DNA of 64,000 nucleotides. Source: Allochromatium tepidum (GTDB taxonomy: Bacteria; Pseudomonadota; Gammaproteobacteria; Chromatiales; Chromatiaceae). The notes beneath the pieces are model-generated. The model was given only the letters and a program-made list of their open reading frames with translations. It had not been told where the DNA came from and did no database searches. Both the position numbers and the translations under genes were made by a program. Shown piece by piece: positions 5,399 through 21,697 of this stretch. Position 1 is the first letter of the stretch, and the number at the start of each line of letters is the position of its first letter. The DNA lies in assembly GCF_018409545.1 (NCBI RefSeq), contig NZ_AP024563.1, positions 2,626,001 through 2,690,000 of the forward strand, in the 5' to 3' direction.

Positions 5399-6799
5399 AT
5401 GTCCGCTTCGACCCATTACGACGTCCTGATCGTCGGCGCCGGTGTCACCGGCACCGCCCTGCTCTATGAACTGGCCAAGTTCACGGATCTCAACCGGCTG
5501 TGTCTGATCGAGAAATACGACAGCGTCGCCCGCGTCAACTCGCACGCCCACAGCAACAGCCAAACCATCCACTGCGGCGACATCGAGACCAACTACACGC
5601 TCGACAAGGCCCGTGTCGTCAAGCGCACGGCCTATATGGTCATCAACTACGCCACCAAGCTCCAGGCGCGCGATCGCGACCGTATCCTCTTCCGCATGCC
5701 CAAGATGCTGCTCGCCGTCGGCAAGGATGAATGCGATCTGGTGCGCAAGCGCTATGAGAGCTTCAAGGAACTCTTCCCCCGGATGCAGCTCCTGGAGCGC
5801 CAGGACATCGCCGACCTGGAGCCGAACGTCGCCCTGGTCGACGGCGCTTGGCGCAAAGAGGAGATCGTCGCCACCGGGACCCCGGACGAGTATTGCGCAG
5901 TCGATTTCCAGGCGTTGGCCGAGTCCTTCTCGCGCGAATGCGTGCGCATCGAACGCAGTTCCAGCAAGCAGATCAGCCAGCTCTTCTCGACCAAGGTCGA
6001 CCGCATCCGCCGCGTCGACGACGGCTATCTGGTGGAGACCAGTCGCGGCCCGCTCCAGGCGCGCGCCGTAGTGGTCTGTGCCGGCGGGCACTCGCTGCTG
6101 ATGGCCCAGGAGATGGGACTCGGGCTGGAATATTCCTGTCTGCCCGTGGCCGGCTCCTTCTATTTCGCTCCCGAGGCGCTCAACGGCAAGGTCTACACGG
6201 TTCAGAACCCCAACCTGCCCTTCGCCGCCGTGCATGGCGACCACGACGTCAAAGAGCGCGGCAAGACCCGCTTCGGACCGACCGCGCTCATGCTGCCGAT
6301 GCTCGAACGGCGCAATCCGGAATCGATCCGCGAGTTCTTCAAGGTGCTGCGCTTCGACCGCCAGGTGGCGGGTGTGGTCTGGGATCAATTCAAGGTCCGT
6401 GACATCCGTCACTACATCCTGCGCAACTTCCTCTACGAGGTGCCGCATCTCAACCGACGTCTGTTCGTCAAGGAGATCCGCAAGATCGTGCCCTCGATGA
6501 CGGTCGAGGACATCCACTATGCCGAGGGCTTCGGCGGCATCCGGCCGCAACTGATCGACAAGGCCGCGCGCAAGCTGCGCATGGGCGAGGCCAAGATCAG
6601 CGATGGCCATGGCATCATCTTCAACATGACCCCATCGCCGGGCGGCACCAGTTGTCTGGGCAGCGGCGAGAATGACATGCGCACCCTCGCCCGCCATCTG
6701 GGTGCGCGCATCGACGAAGCGGCCTTCGAGCGCGAGCTGCTGATGGGACACGAGGACACGCGCGCGCCCGCGTCGATCCTGACCGAGGACGCGGCCTGA
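5399..6799 (+). CDS. mqo: malate:quinone oxidoreductase-like FAD enzyme
   Basis: Peripheral membrane flavoenzyme expected to oxidise malate to oxaloacetate and pass electrons to quinone. The 466 residues open with YDVLIVGAGVTGTALLYELA, the FAD-binding GxGxxG motif at residues 13-18. The segments NSHAHSNSQTIHCGDIETNY and the C-terminal MTPSPGGTSCLGSGENDM match the shorter Mqo branch best known from epsilonproteobacteria, not the E. coli branch. Substrate is inferred from family resemblance; a related 2-hydroxy-acid oxidase role cannot be excluded. The gene stands alone after fetAB. Confidence 0.82.
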   Translation: MSASTHYDVLIVGAGVTGTALLYELAKFTDLNRLCLIEKYDSVARVNSHAHSNSQTIHCGDIETNYTLDKARVVKRTAYMVINYATKLQARDRDRILFRMPKMLLAVGKDECDLVRKRYESFKELFPRMQLLERQDIADLEPNVALVDGAWRKEEIVATGTPDEYCAVDFQALAESFSRECVRIERSSSKQISQLFSTKVDRIRRVDDGYLVETSRGPLQARAVVVCAGGHSLLMAQEMGLGLEYSCLPVAGSFYFAPEALNGKVYTVQNPNLPFAAVHGDHDVKERGKTRFGPTALMLPMLERRNPESIREFFKVLRFDRQVAGVVWDQFKVRDIRHYILRNFLYEVPHLNRRLFVKEIRKIVPSMTVEDIHYAEGFGGIRPQLIDKAARKLRMGEAKISDGHGIIFNMTPSPGGTSCLGSGENDMRTLARHLGARIDEAAFERELLMGHEDTRAPASILTEDAA

Positions 6800-7043
6800 A
6801 GCCGCCGACCGAAGCAGGCCGGCATCCGACCGGCCCCATCGATCTTCACGCCTTCAATCCTTTCAATTGGGTTTGAAGACCCCGGCTCGACTTGGCGTAC
6901 CGGCTTCCGGTGGGTATCTTGCACGGTGGCCCGTGGGGCCGTCCTTCGAGGACGCACCAGGGCCGTCGACGCACAGTCCCACGCGCGCGGCTTGTTCACC
7001 GCCGCGTAGGAACCGCCCACTGCTCCCACGAGAGGCCCGCTTC
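6800..7043 (+). other. 244-base leader before nhaD, possibly structured
   Basis: No convincing gene lies here. An open frame continues upstream of the nhaD ATG but its residues are low-quality translation of GC-rich sequence. The stretch contains a hairpin GGCCGG...CCGGCC near 6820, a short perfect hairpin CGTCC TTCGA GGACG near 6941-6955, and several GGGCC repeats. It may be a long 5' leader for nhaD. No known riboswitch could be matched by eye. Confidence 0.3.
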
Positions 7044-8453
7044 ATGCCCCCCGTTCAACGTCTACTCATCGGACTCTTCGCCTTACTTGTTCCGACCCTG
7101 GCCCTGGCCAGCGGTGAGACCGCCGTCCTCCAGGCCATCGACCTGACCGACCACACCGTCGGTTATCTCGCGCTCCTGATCTTCGGCATCGCCTACGCCC
7201 TGGTCATGGCCGAGGAATTCCTACACCTGCGCAAATCCAAGCCGGTCATCATCGCCGCCGGCCTCATCTGGTGCTTGATCGCCTACGTCTACATCCAGCA
7301 GGGCCAGCCGCACGCGGCCGGCGAGGCGGTGCGCCACAACCTGCTCGAATACGCCGAGCTGATGCTGTTCCTGCTGGTCGCCATGACCTACATCAACGCC
7401 TTGGAGGAGCGGCGGGTCTTCGATGCACTGCGTGCCTGGCTCATCAACAAGGGCTTCGGCTTGCGCACGCTGTTCTGGATGACCGGCACCCTGGCCTTCT
7501 TCATCTCGCCGGTCGCCGACAACCTGACCACGGCGCTCCTGATGTGCGCGGTGGTGATGGCCGTCGGCGGCGACAACCGCACCTTCGTTACCCTGTCCTG
7601 CATCAACATCGTGGTCGCGGCCAATGCCGGCGGCGCCTTCAGCCCCTTCGGCGACATCACGACGCTCATGGTCTGGCAGAAGGGCGTGCTCGATTTCTTC
7701 ACCTTCTTCAAGCTCTTCGTACCCTCGCTGGTCAACTATCTGGTGCCGGCGATCCTCATGTCCTTCGCCGTGCCCAACATCAAGCCCGAGGCCCAGGACG
7801 CCAGCGCACACATGAAGCGCGGCGCACGCCGGATCATCGTGCTCTTCGTTCTGACCATCGCCACGGCGGTGAGCTTCCACAACTTCCTGCATCTGCCGCC
7901 TGTGATCGGTATGCTCACCGGGTTGGGTTATTTACAGGTCTTCGGCTTTTTCCTGCGCAAGACGCATCAGAGTTGGCACCAGCGCAACAGGGATCGCGCC
8001 GCACTGGTCGGCGACATGACGCCATTCGATGTGTTCAACAAGGTCGCGCGCGCCGAATGGGATACGCTGCTGTTCTTCTATGGCGTGGTGCTCTGCGTCG
8101 GCGGACTGGGTCAGATCGGTTACCTCTCGCTGGCCTCGGAGCTGATGTATGAGCAATGGGGACCGACGCTGGCCAATGTCGCGATCGGCGGCCTCTCGGC
8201 CATCGTCGACAACATCCCGGTCATGTTCGCAGTGCTGACCATGATGCCGGAGATGAGCGAAACCCAGTGGTTGCTGGTGACGCTGATGGCGGGTGTCGGT
8301 GGTTCGCTGCTGTCGATCGGCTCGGCGGCGGGTGTGGCGCTGATGGGACAGGCGCGCGGTACCTATACCTTCTTCGCGCATCTGGAATGGACGCCGGCGA
8401 TCGCGCTGGGCTTCCTGGCGAGTATCGCCGTTCACTTCTGGATCAACGGTTGA
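7044..8453 (+). CDS. nhaD: Na+/H+ antiporter NhaD
   Basis: Inner-membrane sodium/proton antiporter of the NhaD/ArsB superfamily, used in sodium tolerance and pH control. The 469-residue product has a hydrophobic N-terminus (LLIGLFALLVPTLALASG) and about twelve further membrane segments. Characteristic pieces are FFISPVADNLTTALLM, NAGGAFSPFGDITTLMVW and IVDNIPVMFAVLTMMPEM, the duplicated half-helix motifs of this fold. The ATG at 7044 was preferred to an upstream in-frame start because it follows AGAGG and gives a normal N-terminus. Confidence 0.93.
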   Translation: MPPVQRLLIGLFALLVPTLALASGETAVLQAIDLTDHTVGYLALLIFGIAYALVMAEEFLHLRKSKPVIIAAGLIWCLIAYVYIQQGQPHAAGEAVRHNLLEYAELMLFLLVAMTYINALEERRVFDALRAWLINKGFGLRTLFWMTGTLAFFISPVADNLTTALLMCAVVMAVGGDNRTFVTLSCINIVVAANAGGAFSPFGDITTLMVWQKGVLDFFTFFKLFVPSLVNYLVPAILMSFAVPNIKPEAQDASAHMKRGARRIIVLFVLTIATAVSFHNFLHLPPVIGMLTGLGYLQVFGFFLRKTHQSWHQRNRDRAALVGDMTPFDVFNKVARAEWDTLLFFYGVVLCVGGLGQIGYLSLASELMYEQWGPTLANVAIGGLSAIVDNIPVMFAVLTMMPEMSETQWLLVTLMAGVGGSLLSIGSAAGVALMGQARGTYTFFAHLEWTPAIALGFLASIAVHFWING

Positions 8454-15088: not shown

Positions 15089-15280
15089 CGAGCGGAGGGA
15101 TCGTATGAACGGGATGTCGCCGACTGTGCGCGCCTCGCATCCGCCGAGGCTTGTCGGTTCGGGCGGTCCATCGTAGCATGATCGCCCATCGGTCTCGGCC
15201 CGCCGGATGGCTTGATAGCTGACGATCACTGGTCAGGCGCATCGATTCCTTCCCCGACCCATCTCGCACAGGACTCGTCC

Positions 15281-16729
15281 ATGACACACTCGCCCCTGCA
15301 ATCGAGGATCTCATGGCTGCTCTGGTCGCTTGCGAGCCTGACCCTGGTCGCGCCGGTGCTCGTCTGGCTCGCTCCCGCACTCATTCCCTGGACGGCCTTG
15401 ATCCTGGTGCCGGCCATCGGCCTCGCCGGTTGGGGCCAGCGAACGCTGGGGCGCAGTCTCGCGCCCCTGCCGCGTCTGACCCAGGTCATCGAACAGGCCG
15501 GTCGCGGCCGGTTCGTAAAACGCATCACCCATCTCGAGTGCGAGGACGAGATCGCCCGCCTCTGCTGGGGCGTCAACGACCTCCTGGATCGTCTGGAGGT
15601 CTATTTCCAGACCCCGACCGGCGGGAGCGCCGCCGGCCTCGAAACCCTCAGACAACAGCTCGACCGCGACTGGTCGGGCGACTTCGAACAGGCACTGCAA
15701 AAATGCGAGCGACTGCGCGCCGAATGTGCCGAACGCGAGCGCACGCATGGGCGCTACCGGCTGCTCGAACGCACTCAGGCGCTCAACAGTACCAACCTGC
15801 TGTCCAACCTCGCCTCCAGCCAGCAGGATCTGGCGAGCGTCAACCAGGAGATGCAGTCGGTGCTCGACATGGCCACCGCCACCGCGCGCGAGGCCGAGGA
15901 CGGCCAGGCCACCGTCGGTCAGGTCGTGACCTATCTGCAGGCGATCGCCGAGCGCATCAACCATGTCGCCGATGCCGTGGCACGACTCAACGCGCGCAGC
16001 CAGGAGGTCACGGACGCCGTGCAGCTCATCACGACGATCGCCAACCAGACCAATCTGCTCGCGCTCAACGCCGCCATCGAGGCCGCGCGCGCCGGTGAGG
16101 CCGGACGCGGCTTCGCCGTGGTGGCCGACGAGGTGCGCAAGCTCGCCGAGAGCAGCCGGCGCGCCTCCGAGTCCATCGGACTGGTCATGAGCGAGCTACG
16201 CGGCGAGAGCGAACGGATGCTCGAAGACTCGGACGCCATGCGCGAAATGGCCGGCCAGTCGAGCGCGGTCATCGGCGAGATGGAGGATCGCTTCGCCCGG
16301 TTCGCCGGCTCGGCGCGCGAAACCCAGTCGCGCGCCCGACATGCCCGCGACATGGGCTTCGGCACCCTGGTGAAGGTCGATCACATGATCTACAAGCAGC
16401 GCGCCTACATGGCCATCCTCACCGATGGACGCGAGCGCGAGCATGTCGAGGCCATCCGCGTCGATCACCGGAGCTGCCGTCTCGGTCGCTGGTACGCGAC
16501 GAGCGGGCAGGAACTCTTCGGCGAGACGCGCGCCTACGCCGGCCTGGACAAGCCACATGCGCGCGTACACGAGAGCGTGCATCGGCTGCTGTCGTTGCTG
16601 GGCGGCGGCTGGGAGGATCGCCCCGAACTCCAGGAGACCATCCTCCAGGCCATGCGCGCGGCCGAGGAGGCGAGCCTCCAGGTCATGCGCGAGGTCGACC
16701 GGATGCTGGCCGAGAAGCACGGGGCCTGA
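15281..16729 (+). CDS. methyl-accepting chemotaxis protein with CZB domain
   Basis: A 482-residue chemoreceptor. Two hydrophobic segments at about 11-31 and 34-51 are joined by almost no loop, so there is no periplasmic ligand domain. The signalling tip is [20 protein letters not shown] then [19 protein letters not shown]. The C-terminus is a chemoreceptor zinc-binding (CZB) domain: H near [10 protein letters not shown], then [20 protein letters not shown] domains bind zinc through a Cys-His3 set and can sense oxidants or metal. Output should go to CheA/CheW, which are not in the window. The ATG at 15281 was chosen over an upstream start because it gives a clean N-terminus. Confidence 0.9.
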
Positions 16730-16752
16730 GTGCCCTCGGAACGTCAGACGCT

Positions 16753-17091
16753 TCAGTGCGGTGCGCGATCGTCGAGATTGGCCGGACAGAGCACCTCGCG
16801 CATGATGCCGATGAGATCGAGCAGCTGCGCGTTGCGGATGCGGTAATAGATCCGGTTGGCCTCCTTGCGCGCGACCACGATGTTCTTGTTCCTGAGCTGT
16901 TCGAGATGCTGCGAGATGTTGCTCTGCGAGGTGCCGGTGCGCTCGACGATCTCGCCGACCGACAGCTCGCTCTTGCCGAGCGAACAGAGGATCTTCCAGC
17001 GTAGCGGATGGGCCATCGCCTTGAGGGCGTTGGCGGTCAGGGTGGTGTCTTCGTCCTCTTCGGGGACTTCGGGTGTGCTCGAATCGTTCAT
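16753..17091 (-). CDS. ArsR-family repressor with SqrR/BigR-like cysteine pair
   Basis: A 112-residue winged-helix repressor. The DNA-recognition region is VGEIVERTGTSQSNISQHLE and the wing VVARKEANRIYYRI. Its two cysteines are C36 (KILCSLG) and C102 (EVLCPAN), 66 residues apart. The sulfide/persulfide sensors SqrR (C41/C107) and BigR (C42/C108) have the same spacing. In those proteins the pair forms a polysulfide link that releases DNA. No metal-binding ArsR cluster is seen. The gene starts 16 bases after the response-regulator stop, so it probably belongs to the kinase-regulator operon. Sulfide sensing is inferred. Confidence 0.85.
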   Translation of the reverse strand: MNDSSTPEVPEEDEDTTLTANALKAMAHPLRWKILCSLGKSELSVGEIVERTGTSQSNISQHLEQLRNKNIVVARKEANRIYYRIRNAQLLDLIGIMREVLCPANLDDRAPH

Positions 17092-17107
17092 CCTTCACTC
17101 CTTTACT

Positions 17108-17950
17108 TCAATCGGTCTCGATGCGGGTGTAACCCGTCATGTCCTTGGCGATACAGATGATATCGCTGATCCGGCCCTCGGCGTCCTTCACCGCCGTGCG
17201 CGAGAACAGGATCGGCACCCGCCGCCCGTCGCGGGCGATGAAACGCGCCTCGATCTTGCTCAGCGCCCCGGTGCGGATCAGCGCCTCAAGCCAGGTGCCC
17301 ATGAAGGCGCCGGCCTGCTCGTCGCCCTCCTCCTCGAACACGTCACCGATCGCCAGACCGAGCAGCTCCGCCTCGCTGTACCCCAGCAGACGCCGCGCGG
17401 CCGGATTGGTCAGCTTGATGCGTCCGTCCGGCTCCAGCACCAGCAGCGCCTCGCCCATGTGGTTGAGGATGTTCTCCAGATACTGCCGCGCCTCGGCCAG
17501 CTCGCGCGTGCGCTCGGCGACCTTGAGTTCCAGGGTGCGGTTGAGTTCGCGCTCCTTCTCGATCAGCCGGAAATAGGTGCTGATCTTGTTGATGAGTTGG
17601 GCGTCCTCGATCGGCTTGAGCAGATAGTCCGCCGCGCCGACGGCGAAACCCCGGCGCTGGAACTCCTCGGACTTGAAGGCGGCGGTCAGGAAGATGATCG
17701 GGATGTCGCGCGTGCGCTTGCGCAGCTTCAGGAGCGAGGCGGTCTGGAAACCATCCATCTCGGGCATCTGCACATCGAGGATGATCAGATCGATGTCCGG
17801 ATGCGCATGGGTCAGATCGATCGCCTCCTGACCCGAACCGGCCTCCAGCACACTGACGTCGAGATGGCTCTCGATGAGCGTGCGCAGGGTGAAGAGGTTG
17901 TGGGCGTGATCGTCGACGATCAGGAGTTTGAAGTCGGCGTAGCGCGTCAT
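17108..17950 (-). CDS. response regulator with PAS domain, no DNA-binding domain
   Basis: A 280-residue two-component regulator. The receiver is at about 8-125 with acidic pair D14/D15 ([10 protein letters not shown]), phospho-acceptor D59 ([13 protein letters not shown]) and K112 (LLKPIE). A coiled coil ([20 protein letters not shown]) leads into a PAS domain at about 150-275 ([20 protein letters not shown], then [17 protein letters not shown]). There is no output domain, so it probably signals by protein contact, perhaps back to the kinase. It overlaps the kinase gene by four bases and is followed by the ArsR gene. Confidence 0.9.
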
Positions 17951-20394
17951 GTCCTCTCCGTTGCCTGACGACGGGCGGATGCCCGGCCGTGTTCATCGCT
18001 CAGCGGCTCTAGGGGTTCGGACGCCGCTCGCCCCAGCACCTGCACCAGCAGCGCCGTGAGCGCCTCGGATTCGACCGGCTTGTCCAAGCGGGCGACGGCG
18101 CCGCCGACGAGACAGTCATCGAGTCGCGGGTCGGACTCCGGCGTCCCCATGACCGCCACCGCCGGATGCGGCCCCAGGGTCTCGGCCAGAAGGGCCTGGA
18201 TCGTATCACAGGTCGTCTCGGTCGACACCTGAGCGGCCAGCAGCACCAGGGCGCAACCCTCGCCCTCCTCGCGCAGCGTCTCCAGCGCCTCGTCGAGATC
18301 GGCGGCGGTCTGGACGCGCAGACCGCGTCGCGACAGCTCCGAGGTGAGCCGAACCAGTGTCCTGACGTCTCGCTCGATGATGAGCACCCAGGGCGCGCCC
18401 GGCTCGGACAAGGACTCGGAGTTGACCTCCACCTCACCGGCGTCCCCATCGACCGCGTCGAGCGGCCCGGAAGCCACCGGCACAGATTCAGGCCGAATCT
18501 CAGGCGCCGGGCTCTCAGCGTCCGGCGATAGCGACAGCGGCAACAGCAGCGAAAAGCGCGAGCCGACTCCGGGCGTACTCTCGACCTCGATGACGCCGCC
18601 GAGCAGGGTCGCCAGCTCGCGACTGATCGCCAGACCCAGCCCGGTGCCGCCATAGCGGCGGCGCGTCGAGCCGTCGGCCTGCTGGAAGGCCTCGAAGATG
18701 ATCTCCTGCTTGTCGGGCGGGATGCCGATGCCGGTGTCGAGCACGCTCAGCACCAGCGGCCGGACCGACTCCGCGCGCGTGCCGACCTCGACCCGCACCT
18801 CGCCGCGCTCGGTGAACTTGATGGCATTGGCGAGAAAGTTCTTGAGGATCTGGCGCAGTTTGTCACGATCGGTCCGGATCGACTCGGGCGCGCCCGGCTC
18901 CATAAGTAGACTCAGCTCGACCGATTTGTCGGCGAGCTGCGGACTGAAGAGTTCGATCAGATCCTCCAGCATCGGCCGCAGCTCGACCGGCTCCGGATTC
19001 AGGCTGAGCCGTCCGGACTCGATGCGCGAGATGTCGAGGATGTCGTCGATCAGCGCCCGCAGATCGCGTCCGGCCTCGTGGATGACCTGGGCCTGACGGC
19101 GCTGGATCGGACTCAGACCATTGCCCTCGGCACCGAGCATCTTCGACAGCAGCAGGATGGAATTGAGCGGCGTGCGCAGTTCATGGCTGACATTGGCCAG
19201 GAACTGCGACTTGTAGCGGTTGGACTGTTCCAGCTCGCGCGTATGGGCACGCGCCGCGCGCAGATGCTCGGCATGGGTCGCGGCCAGCTCGGTGAGTCGT
19301 TCGCCGAGTTCACGGAGTTCGCGCGGCCCGGTCCAACTGAAACGCAACGGTTGCCCGTCGTGCAGGATGCGCTGGATACCACCGAGCAGCTCGTGCCCGA
19401 AGTGCTCGACGCGCGCCGCGATCCAGCGCGCCAGCCCCATCACCGCCAGCACCAGCACGGCGATGATGGTCAGCACCCGCACGATCAGCTCGTTGCGGAA
19501 GGCATCCAGCGGCGAGGGATCGACCACGCGCCCGACCCAGAGCGGAAAGCCGTCCTCGGTCAGGAACATGGGCACCCACAGCATCTGCCGCCCCTGACCG
19601 CCCTTCCACAGCGCCAGCTTGCCCTCGGCGAAGATCGCCGCCAGTCCCGGAAAGGTCTCGAAGGCTTCCGGCTGACCGCCGGCCGGCCGGCCGGGGCGCA
19701 GATAGCTGCCGTCGTGATTGACCCAGAGCGTGTTGCGGTAGAACTGCGCCAACCCGCCGACATCGATGGTCAACACCACCACGCCCGGCTCCGGGTCGCC
19801 ATGCTCGCCGCCGATCCGGCTGACCAGATTGAGGGTCATGAGCCGGCGCGGATCATCGACTCCGGTGCGGGCGTCGACGCGGATGCGGCTGACCATGACC
19901 GCGCCGGCCTGACTCCGCAACCCGGCATCGATGAACTGACGGTTCGGAACCTGGGGCGGCTGGGCGGTCGGGCGCCATTCCTGGGTGTGCGCGTCACGCA
20001 CCAGCCAGAAGCGCTCCTGCCCCTCGGCGTCGACGAACAGGATCTGGATGACGTCGTGCTGATCGGCCAGGATCTGGTTGATCCAGGTGGTATAGCGCGC
20101 GCGCGCCGGATCGATCTGATCCGATTCCCCTCGCGCGCCCAGGATCAGTCCAGGCTCGGGCAGTTTGGCCAGGAAGCGGATCATCTCGTGACGGCTGGCC
20201 AGATGCTGGTCGAGATCGCGGAAGTCCGCGCGCAGATTCTGCAAGTAGGCGCGCTGATAGAAGAGCGCGGTGCGATCGAGCACCAGCGGCAGATTGATGA
20301 GCGCGGCCAGGATCAGCGGCATCAGGCCGAAGATCAGCAGGAACAGCAGGATATAGGCGCGCAGTTTGACGCCGGACGCGCGGGCCGGGGACAT
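17947..20394 (-). CDS. sensor histidine kinase with a degenerate receiver domain
   Basis: An 815-residue membrane kinase. TM1 is at about 10-33 ([20 protein letters not shown]), a periplasmic sensor of about 290 residues follows, then TM2 ([19 protein letters not shown]). The kinase core has the H-box [16 protein letters not shown]-box [15 protein letters not shown]1 [11 protein letters not shown] and G2 [10 protein letters not shown]. The last 130 residues look like a receiver ([19 protein letters not shown]), but the phospho-Asp position reads [11 protein letters not shown], so it cannot be phosphorylated in the usual way. The lysine of LDKPVE remains. It overlaps the response regulator, which has an intact receiver. 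Confidence 0.92.
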
Positions 20395-20400
20395 CCGGAG

Positions 20401-20880
20401 TCAGAGCGCGCGCACCAGGTCGAGCACCTGGGCGGCGTGGCCCTTGGGCTTGACGTCGTAGAGCGCGTGCCGGACGACGCCGGATTTGTCGACGACGAAG
20501 GTCGAGCGCAGGATGCCGAGCCGCTTCTCGCCGTGCGCTTCCTTCTCGCGCCAGACGCCATAGGCTTCGCAGACCTCGCCGTCGCTGTCGGAGAGCAGAT
20601 GGATGGAGAGTCCGTATTTGTCGCGGAAGGCGCCGTGGCGGGCGCAACTGTCGCGGCTGATGCCGAGGATCTCGGTGTCGGCGGCCTCGAACTCGGCTTG
20701 CAGGTCGGTGAATTCGAGCGCTTCCATGGTGCAACCGGGCGTGTCGTCCTTGGGATAGAAATAGATCACGCAATGACGCCGCCCGCTGAGCGAGGCGAGA
20801 CTCACCGGCTCCATGTCGGCGTTGGGCAGGGCGAAATCCGGGGCGCGATCGCCGGGTTGCAGCATGGGTGAGTGCTCCAT
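20401..20880 (-). CDS. bcp: thioredoxin-dependent peroxiredoxin Bcp/PrxQ
   Basis: Reduces hydrogen peroxide and organic hydroperoxides with thioredoxin. The peroxidatic C50 lies in DDTPGCTMEALEF. The usual resolving Cys five residues later is Ala here, so this is not the E. coli Bcp subtype. C79 (SRDSCARHG) might replace it, or the enzyme may be of the one-cysteine kind. Other family parts are VIYFYPKDDTPG and RSTFVVDKSGVVRH. An in-frame ATG at codon 6 (MLQPGDRAPDF) is an alternative start. The kinase gene follows seven bases later. Confidence 0.93.
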   Translation of the reverse strand: MEHSPMLQPGDRAPDFALPNADMEPVSLASLSGRRHCVIYFYPKDDTPGCTMEALEFTDLQAEFEAADTEILGISRDSCARHGAFRDKYGLSIHLLSDSDGEVCEAYGVWREKEAHGEKRLGILRSTFVVDKSGVVRHALYDVKPKGHAAQVLDLVRAL

Positions 20881-20994
20881 CGACAGGGTTGAACGATGTC
20901 GCGAATGTAGGCATGACGACGCAGGTCGTCAACTCTCGCGCCCGCCTCGCGGCGGATGGTCGAAATCAGGCGCAGAAAATTCAATAATTTATTG

Positions 20995-21000
20995 TATTAT
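20995..21000 (+). promoter_or_regulatory. possible -10 box for the 21.0 kb RNA
   Basis: TATTAT in an AT-rich stretch (20979-21005) between bcp and the downstream convergent gene. A -35 box is not convincing. Its position would start an RNA near 21007. Confidence 0.35.
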
Positions 21001-21006
21001 GAATTT

Positions 21007-21109
21007 CTGTAAAACGACTGATGCACGACCCCTGGATGGGGCTGCAATGAGCAGCAAGCCCTTGGGTCGCCACGGCAGTCACACACCCTGCCGTCGCGGC
21101 CCTTTTTTA
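21007..21109 (+). ncRNA. candidate small RNA ending at an intrinsic terminator
   Basis: About 103 bases between bcp (minus) and a minus-strand methyltransferase, so no plus-strand gene follows. CGACCC (21026-21031) can pair with GGGTCG (21064-21069), enclosing a GCTGC/GCAGC hairpin. CCCC TGGA TGGGG exposes a GGA in a small loop, a CsrA-like feature. The RNA would end at the terminator described separately. Start and expression are predicted, not shown, and no known RNA family was recognised. Confidence 0.45.
21064..21109 (+). terminator. rho-independent terminator on the plus strand
   Basis: A long hairpin with core ACGGCAG / CTGCCGT is extended by GGGTCGC / GCGGCCC with one mismatch and a wobble pair. 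It is followed directly by TTTTTT. The T run is on the plus strand only. No plus-strand protein gene precedes it, so it most likely ends a small RNA. The 5' half of the stem also pairs with CGACCC upstream, so two folds compete. Confidence 0.7.
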
Positions 21110-21697
21110 CGCGCGCTGGGCGAGAGCCACGGTGTAGTGCGCGCCCTGCTTGAGCTTGTCGTAGTTGCCGAAGACCTCGGTGAGATTGCGCTCCATGTAC
21201 TGGCGCAGTCCGTTGATCGTGACCAGATAGAGCCGACCGCCGGGACGCAGGCGGGCGTGGGCGTCGTGCAGCAGGATCGCCAGCAGTTCCTTGCCGACCT
21301 TGGCCGGGACGTTGCTCGCGATCAGGTCGAAGCGGCGTTCCGGCTCGATCTGGTCGAAGCCGTTGCTCAGCCGTGCCTCGGCGTTGTCGAGCCGGTTGAG
21401 TCGGGCGTTACGGTTGGCATAGTCGACGGCGACGAAGTCCTTGTCGACCAGGAGCGTGCGACCCTGGGGGGCCAGCGCCGCCAGGGTCAGGCCGATCGGA
21501 CCATAGCCGCAGCCGAGATCCAGACAGTCGTCGCTCGGCTCGATGTGCAGATGATCGAGCAGCAAGCGCGTACCCTCGTCGATCTCGCGCGGCGAGAACA
21601 GACCCCAGGTACTGCGGAATTCGAGGGTGCGGCCGCCGAGTTGGGCCGAGAACCGGATGTCGCGGCGCAGACCGGCGAGTTGTTCGGGAGTGAGCAT
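21107..21697 (-). CDS. class I SAM methyltransferase, RsmC-like
   Basis: A 196-residue methyltransferase. Motif I is DLGCGYGPIGLTLA and the acidic residue after it is in LLVDKDF. The catalytic motif, NPPF in RsmC/RlmG rRNA guanine methyltransferases, reads SNVPAKVGKEL here. The frame runs further upstream, but ATG at 21697 (MLTPEQLAGLRRDI) gives the natural start. The substrate is probably RNA by family, though a small molecule is possible. It converges on the candidate small RNA and is divergent from hypC. Confidence 0.8.
   Translation of the reverse strand: MLTPEQLAGLRRDIRFSAQLGGRTLEFRSTWGLFSPREIDEGTRLLLDHLHIEPSDDCLDLGCGYGPIGLTLAALAPQGRTLLVDKDFVAVDYANRNARLNRLDNAEARLSNGFDQIEPERRFDLIASNVPAKVGKELLAILLHDAHARLRPGGRLYLVTINGLRQYMERNLTEVFGNYDKLKQGAHYTVALAQRA

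Follow-up and report, generated by a model that had tools for sequence, protein, structure and literature searches.

The window analyzed here, a stretch of 64,000 nucleotides from Allochromatium tepidum (contig NZ_AP024563.1, positions 2,626,001–2,690,000), carries on its minus strand three consecutive genes. They specify a membrane hybrid histidine kinase (HK; 17947–20394), a response regulator composed of a receiver (REC) and a PAS domain (REC-PAS; 17108–17950), and a 112-residue ArsR-type winged-helix protein, hereafter ArsR1 (16753–17091). As the initial annotation stated, HK and REC-PAS share four bases (17947–17950), ArsR1 starts 16 bases past the REC-PAS stop codon, and its translation reads cysteine at positions 36 and 102.

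Kinase, REC-PAS and ArsR1 make up a conserved module which is common to many sulfur-oxidizing bacteria, as judged from order (Chromatiales), class and named-genome sets that overlap in part. The 147 genomes of the order gave REC-PAS in 132 and ArsR1 in 130, and in none of the 147 does ArsR1 occur without REC-PAS. Of the 130 order genomes with both, 128 have ArsR1 and REC-PAS side by side on one strand of a single contig (gap 7–319 bp, median 64.5 bp); in two further cases (G087 and G149) the genes are truncated at contig ends, yet both lie together. Across the class REC-PAS occurs in 26 of 369 genomes, four of which belong to the order; these 26 are spread over scattered families, and ArsR1 lies directly downstream in every one of them. 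Among the matches listed, 24 named loci have a full-length REC-PAS of at least 65% identity, and it is followed by ArsR1 in 24 and preceded by HK in 23. The holders among these matches include Thiocapsa, Thiodictyon, Thiorhodococcus, Sedimenticola, Thiohalocapsa and Ca. Thiosymbion, the closest named relative being Allochromatium humboldtianum (REC-PAS 98% identical). In four genomes the match contains a stop, three times in ArsR1 (G017, G057 and G132) and once in REC-PAS (G013).

The kinase is the less constant partner. It stands beside REC-PAS and ArsR1 in 20 of 22 loci, one of these with an interrupting insert, and class-wide in 22 of 26, where two of the four misses are contig ends; no kinase neighbours REC-PAS in G026, in G271 or, through all three sets, in G015. 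Because HK is sometimes missing beside them, REC-PAS and ArsR1 look like the core of the module, and their pairing supports a shared pathway well beyond one genome. In G026 a small rhodanese-like gene (L071:11077–11502, minus strand) lies directly upstream of REC-PAS, a single case. In G030 the kinase and REC-PAS genes are each split by one of two similar inserts, about 1.7 kb long (approximately L293:3352–5084 and 6383–8121), and ArsR1 is whole; the frame within the inserts is presumably a transposase.

The module goes with a sulfur-oxidizing, CO2-fixing lifestyle, and within the order it has, as far as tested, no independent link to dsrA, soxB or phototrophy. Of the 147 order genomes, 15 have no REC-PAS, 14 have no dsrA and 10 have neither (p 3e-9); class-wide, dsrA is present in 23 of 26 REC-PAS genomes versus 96 of 343 others (p 1e-9, uncorrected for lifestyle or kinship). 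Nine order genomes are without dsrA, RuBisCO and the module together, and a specific link to dsrA within the order was rejected when removal of the ten RuBisCO-less genomes left a p of 0.20. soxB gives a like signal, being missing in 11 of 15 module-less versus 17 of 132 module-carrying genomes, a tally in which eight soxB-less genomes are counted by number and not individually listed. Phototrophy (PF00124) did not track the module significantly, the latter lacking in 3 of 59 genomes with and 12 of 88 without PF00124 (p 0.10). The window's own genome (G000) carries dsrA, RuBisCO and reaction-centre genes, yet soxB was not found there at E 1e-50.

ArsR1 possesses the ArsR fold (PF01022, 50 bits against a cut-off of 22), and its predicted model (mean predicted local distance difference test score, pLDDT, 82) matches ArsR structures. 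The model places Cys36 in helix 29–38 (helix 2) and Cys102 in helix 88–105 (helix 5). Both residues (codons 16984–16986 and 16786–16788, minus strand) are invariant in alignment A2 and in the homologs compared, and their spacing of 66 is kept in 43 of 43 ArsR1 homologs besides the window's own (22 + 21), four of which have a third cysteine. In the phmmer alignment the two line up with the cysteine pairs of HlyU and BigR. A metal-binding CxC motif in helix 3 was not found in ArsR1, which reads ELSVGEI there; L002, the arsenic-type ArsR of the same genome, reads ELCVC. According to the accessible text of PMC10509353, the reactive-sulfur ArsR cluster (cluster 4 of the sequence similarity network, SSN) has its cysteine pair in helices 2 and 5. 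ArsR1 thus bears those structural marks of a reactive-sulfur ArsR that sequence and model can show, and it is likely to be a sulfane-sulfur sensor. That the pair serves peroxide or disulfide sensing or structure instead, with the link to sulfide one of lifestyle only, we consider improbable. Against it stand the invariance of both cysteines in all 43 homologs and the behaviour of HlyU, which with the same pair reacts with persulfides and not, in the same accessible text, with peroxide or glutathione disulfide (PMC10509353).

The solved relatives of ArsR1 in the PDB (phmmer) are led by NolR (68 bits), which in the alignment is without both cysteines. There follow HlyU (60), BigR (58), YgaV (57), Rv0081 (48), SqrR (48), the nickel sensor SrnR (47), SmtB (45), CzrA (28) and arsenic ArsR proteins (25–23). 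ArsR1 scores 86.8 bits with the broad NCBIfam model NF033788 (“metalloregulator ArsR/SmtB”, cut-off 55), a model whose match is no proof of metal binding. The best NCBIfam equivalog is BigR (NF040642), and since its score of 70.2 bits is far below the cut-off of 155, ArsR1 may be described as BigR-like but not BigR. In a tree of 72 proteins ArsR1 forms one group (99/99) and ArsR1 plus ArsR2, a rhodanese-linked paralogue in the same genome, another (99/97); the columns are few, the branches long, the bootstrap unsettled and the deeper forks weak. The window's ArsR1 is represented in this tree by L059 (98% identical), and the distant 66-residue fragment L054 was dropped. Structure comparison of the ArsR1 model did not tell the sensor classes apart. 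The initial annotation had called the protein a SqrR-like repressor and had proposed its alignment with SqrR, BigR and YgaV as a check. ArsR1 would tentatively be placed with the two-cysteine group and not with the metal types; HlyU, BigR and YgaV outscore every metal sensor, but SqrR, at 48 bits, is level with SrnR and Rv0081.

REC-PAS is well conserved, with a mean column identity of 80% over the 25 rows of alignment A1 (from which L065, with an in-frame stop, L068, L070, L073, L092 and L098 are among those set aside). The receiver is intact: D13, D14, D59, T89 and K112 are invariant in 25 of 25. Pfam found receiver and PAS matches only, and no output domain beyond them; the annotated lack of a DNA-binding domain is thereby borne out. 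HK contains HisKA (74 bits) and HATPase (103 bits) domains, while the match to its C-terminal receiver falls under the Pfam cut-off. Judged by eye, the phospho-acceptor aspartate is lost from this receiver in the window and near relatives and is still at its site in L035, L053, L062, L063, L066 and L068. Alignment A3 omits L069 (in-frame stop), and the duplicates L075, L076, L087, L093 and L094 were not used. The periplasmic sensor is predicted to be double-Cache-like (model pLDDT 83), its best Foldseek match being a putative histidine kinase sensor (E 1.7e-9, template modelling score, TM-score, 0.51). Pfam, run on 20 members, matched HK_sensor_dom_bact in 6, dCache_1 in 1 and the chance-like PI_PP_I in 11, and a profile search against PDB sequences gave only E values of 0.35–0.57.

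We would tentatively suggest, as a reading which is quite possible though short of probable, that kinase, REC-PAS and ArsR1 form one signalling unit, in which ArsR1 brings together a signal from outside and the sulfur state within the cell. HK, via its double-Cache-like sensor, would answer a periplasmic signal and phosphorylate the REC-PAS receiver. As it has no DNA-binding domain, REC-PAS would act by contact; given that it has no output domain of any kind and hardly ever occurs where ArsR1 is missing, action on ArsR1 is the most straightforward interpretation. The latter, presumably a dimeric repressor, would read cytoplasmic sulfane sulfur by bridging of Cys36 and Cys102 and then leave the DNA, and would integrate this state with the outside signal in controlling genes of sulfur lithotrophy. 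The route from HK through REC-PAS to ArsR1 is unproven, and draws on gene pairing and the missing REC-PAS output domain. With somewhat less assurance still we would entertain a new class of unit, in which a phosphorylated, output-less REC-PAS directly controls a sulfane-sulfur-sensing ArsR and so integrates periplasmic and cytoplasmic sulfur signals across sulfur-oxidizing Gammaproteobacteria.

Several observations weigh against coupling of this kind. The adjacency of REC-PAS and ArsR1 is also compatible with simple co-expression. A genuine break in the pairing is seen in G125, where the two lie on separate contigs; in G159 REC-PAS is present and no ArsR1 was detected, either in the 950 bases downstream or in a scan of the genome. 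Within the order, lifestyle explains the co-occurrence with dsrA: of the 137 RuBisCO-positive genomes, the six that manage without the module include one without dsrA, and the 131 module carriers include four. No operator-like palindrome is shared upstream of the module in 23 loci, the best motif being the bcp start codon region, and no target genes of ArsR1 were found.

Alternatively, ArsR1 may be a sulfane-sulfur repressor of genes elsewhere while the two-component pair signals to some other partner, the operon being shared for sulfur lithotrophy and its products uncoupled. We regard this as rather unlikely, though it has a precedent: in the accessible text of PMC9918477, the two-component system NreBC and the sulfane-sulfur repressor YrkD act on one cluster, each answering its own signal. 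It also gains from the REC-PAS stretches nearest to the module. Among the matches listed, L230 has the same REC-PAS front part (40% identity), and the frames read in L230 and L231 are multidomain kinases, so that REC-PAS may simply relay phosphate. Proteins of the L230 type carry their own kinase domains; in the 17 loci with less similar REC-PAS matches that were examined there is no ArsR match, and kinase-like matches lie nearby in 15. L247–L285 (39 of the 80 loci listed) fall outside this examination. NreC, however, has its own DNA sites according to that same accessible text, whereas REC-PAS has no output domain, and REC-PAS is without a detected ArsR1 in just 1 of 132 order genomes, the G159 case.

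Autoregulation is common in ArsR families, and ArsR1 might be an ordinary autorepressor, with persulfide derepressing a bcp-HK-REC-PAS-ArsR1 operon and the kinase system as output rather than input. This has, in our estimation, little probability, although the layout of the locus lends it something. A gene for a bcp/PrxQ-type peroxiredoxin (20401–20880, minus strand), which the initial annotation missed, ends 6 bp ahead of the HK start and probably heads the predicted operon, one gene earlier than had been described; its true start is likely the ATG at 20865, because several relatives begin MLQPGD. Upstream of bcp on the same strand lie a promoter-like TTGACG-17-TACATT (20904–20932) and an AT-rich imperfect dyad (20978–21005), the latter alike only in the closest species. 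No minus-strand promoter-like sites other than those upstream of bcp were found in 16600–21150, and the TTGACG is kept in 12 of the 13 bcp upstream regions shown (counted by eye). Against autorepression, the 23 module upstream regions yield no common operator-like palindrome, whereas 17 ArsR2 regions do, although species-specific operators are possible; furthermore, only 12 of 22 loci have bcp within 200 bp upstream of HK, and 3 others carry it at another place in the stretch. In a survey of 18 loci the recurrent neighbours besides the module were bcp (9), a frame antisense to REC-PAS (5) and one large protein (5), overlapping frames concealing some genes.

The paralogue ArsR2 (L055:9686–10159, minus strand; G000:C1, about 180.7–181.2 kb) offers a comparison within the same genome. 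It forms, by sequence, the sister clade of ArsR1, is 60% identical to it over 91 residues with SQSNISQHL shared in the DNA-binding part, and has the same cysteine pair, 66 apart in 17 of 17. ArsR2 has no kinase; it lies upstream of the rhodanese gene and precedes rhodanese-secB-gpsA in 16 of the 17 class-wide loci. A motif run of the same kind as that on the module recovered from the 17 ArsR2 upstream regions an operator-like palindrome of its own, TTTATCATTGTACGGTGATAAA, conserved and found in one place in the genome. Searched with up to 3 mismatches as a possible ArsR1 target, the ArsR2 operator TTTATNATTGTANNNTNATAAA was rejected, since it occurs at a single place in the window's own genome, upstream of ArsR2. 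With no shared operator before the module and the ArsR2 palindrome only before ArsR2, neither autoregulation nor any ArsR1 target is supported by sequence. The shuffles used for the module, ArsR2 and dsrA upstream regions keep base composition only, relatedness not being allowed for.

A second palindrome, CTATCCC-N4-GGGATAG, stands before dsrA in 19 of 20 genomes, with two weaker matches (L118 to L136; G000:C1:1559173–1559188). Its core, TATCYC-N4-GRGATA, has one match per genome, before dsrA, in all 8 searched genomes of the genus. As an ArsR1-specific operator it was rejected, because it is also present in genomes without the module: with at least 12 of 14 positions matching, it occurs, among the dsrA genomes of the class, in 10 of 20 with the module and 11 of 20 without it (20 of the 23 and 20 of the 96 available, respectively), and within the order in 9 of 17 with it and 2 of 3 without. 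One module-carrying stretch in this test measures 105 bases, and shuffles reached 12 in two stretches. The palindrome looks like a candidate dedicated dsr operator of some regulator.

ArsR1 shares with SqrR, BigR, YgaV and HlyU the fold, the helix 2/5 cysteine pair and the absence of a metal CxC, and differs in its separate clade and in an identity of 28–38% in structural alignments. SoxR/sHdrR are further reactive-sulfur ArsR repressors; our comparison covered the four just named. Repressors of this type go with sqr, pdo or sox, and ArsR1 goes with a kinase and REC-PAS instead. The neighbours of reactive-sulfur regulators are sulfurtransferases or rhodaneses and sulfur transporters in the accessible text of PMC10509353, and sulfur enzymes and transporters in PMC12423496, in the main text of which the word “kinase” is absent; ArsR is likewise absent from the main text of PMC11267869. 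In titles and abstracts of the open-licence literature, supplements lying outside that scope, no description was found of a kinase and REC-PAS regulator with an ArsR repressor as partner.

YrkD is a repressor of the CsoR-type family. Together with NreBC of Bacillus licheniformis it likewise brings sulfane-sulfur repression and two-component signalling into a single cluster serving sulfur oxidation; the module, unlike that cluster, has no sulfur enzyme genes itself. The initial annotation had considered a pathway joining a membrane kinase to a sulfide-responsive repressor new for a sulfur oxidizer. That may hold for the pathway itself; the combination of a two-component system with a sulfane-sulfur repressor has been published for B. 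licheniformis, as the accessible text of PMC9918477 describes. The module observation is thus real, the pairing is already known in kind, and the coupling is unproven. Control of sulfur oxidation in sulfur lithotrophs, purple sulfur bacteria for example, is poorly known, and a compact module in which sensor, relay and DNA-binding protein are all defined offers a starting point that can be tested directly. If the coupling is true, a repressor family noted for its thiol chemistry would gain control by phosphorylation.

Reaction-centre genes of the genome lie 3.3 kb past the end of the window. At the ArsR end of the operon a chemoreceptor gene whose product has a CZB zinc-binding domain (window 15212–16729, plus strand) converges on it, and such a gene occupies the same position in L056, L057 and L059.

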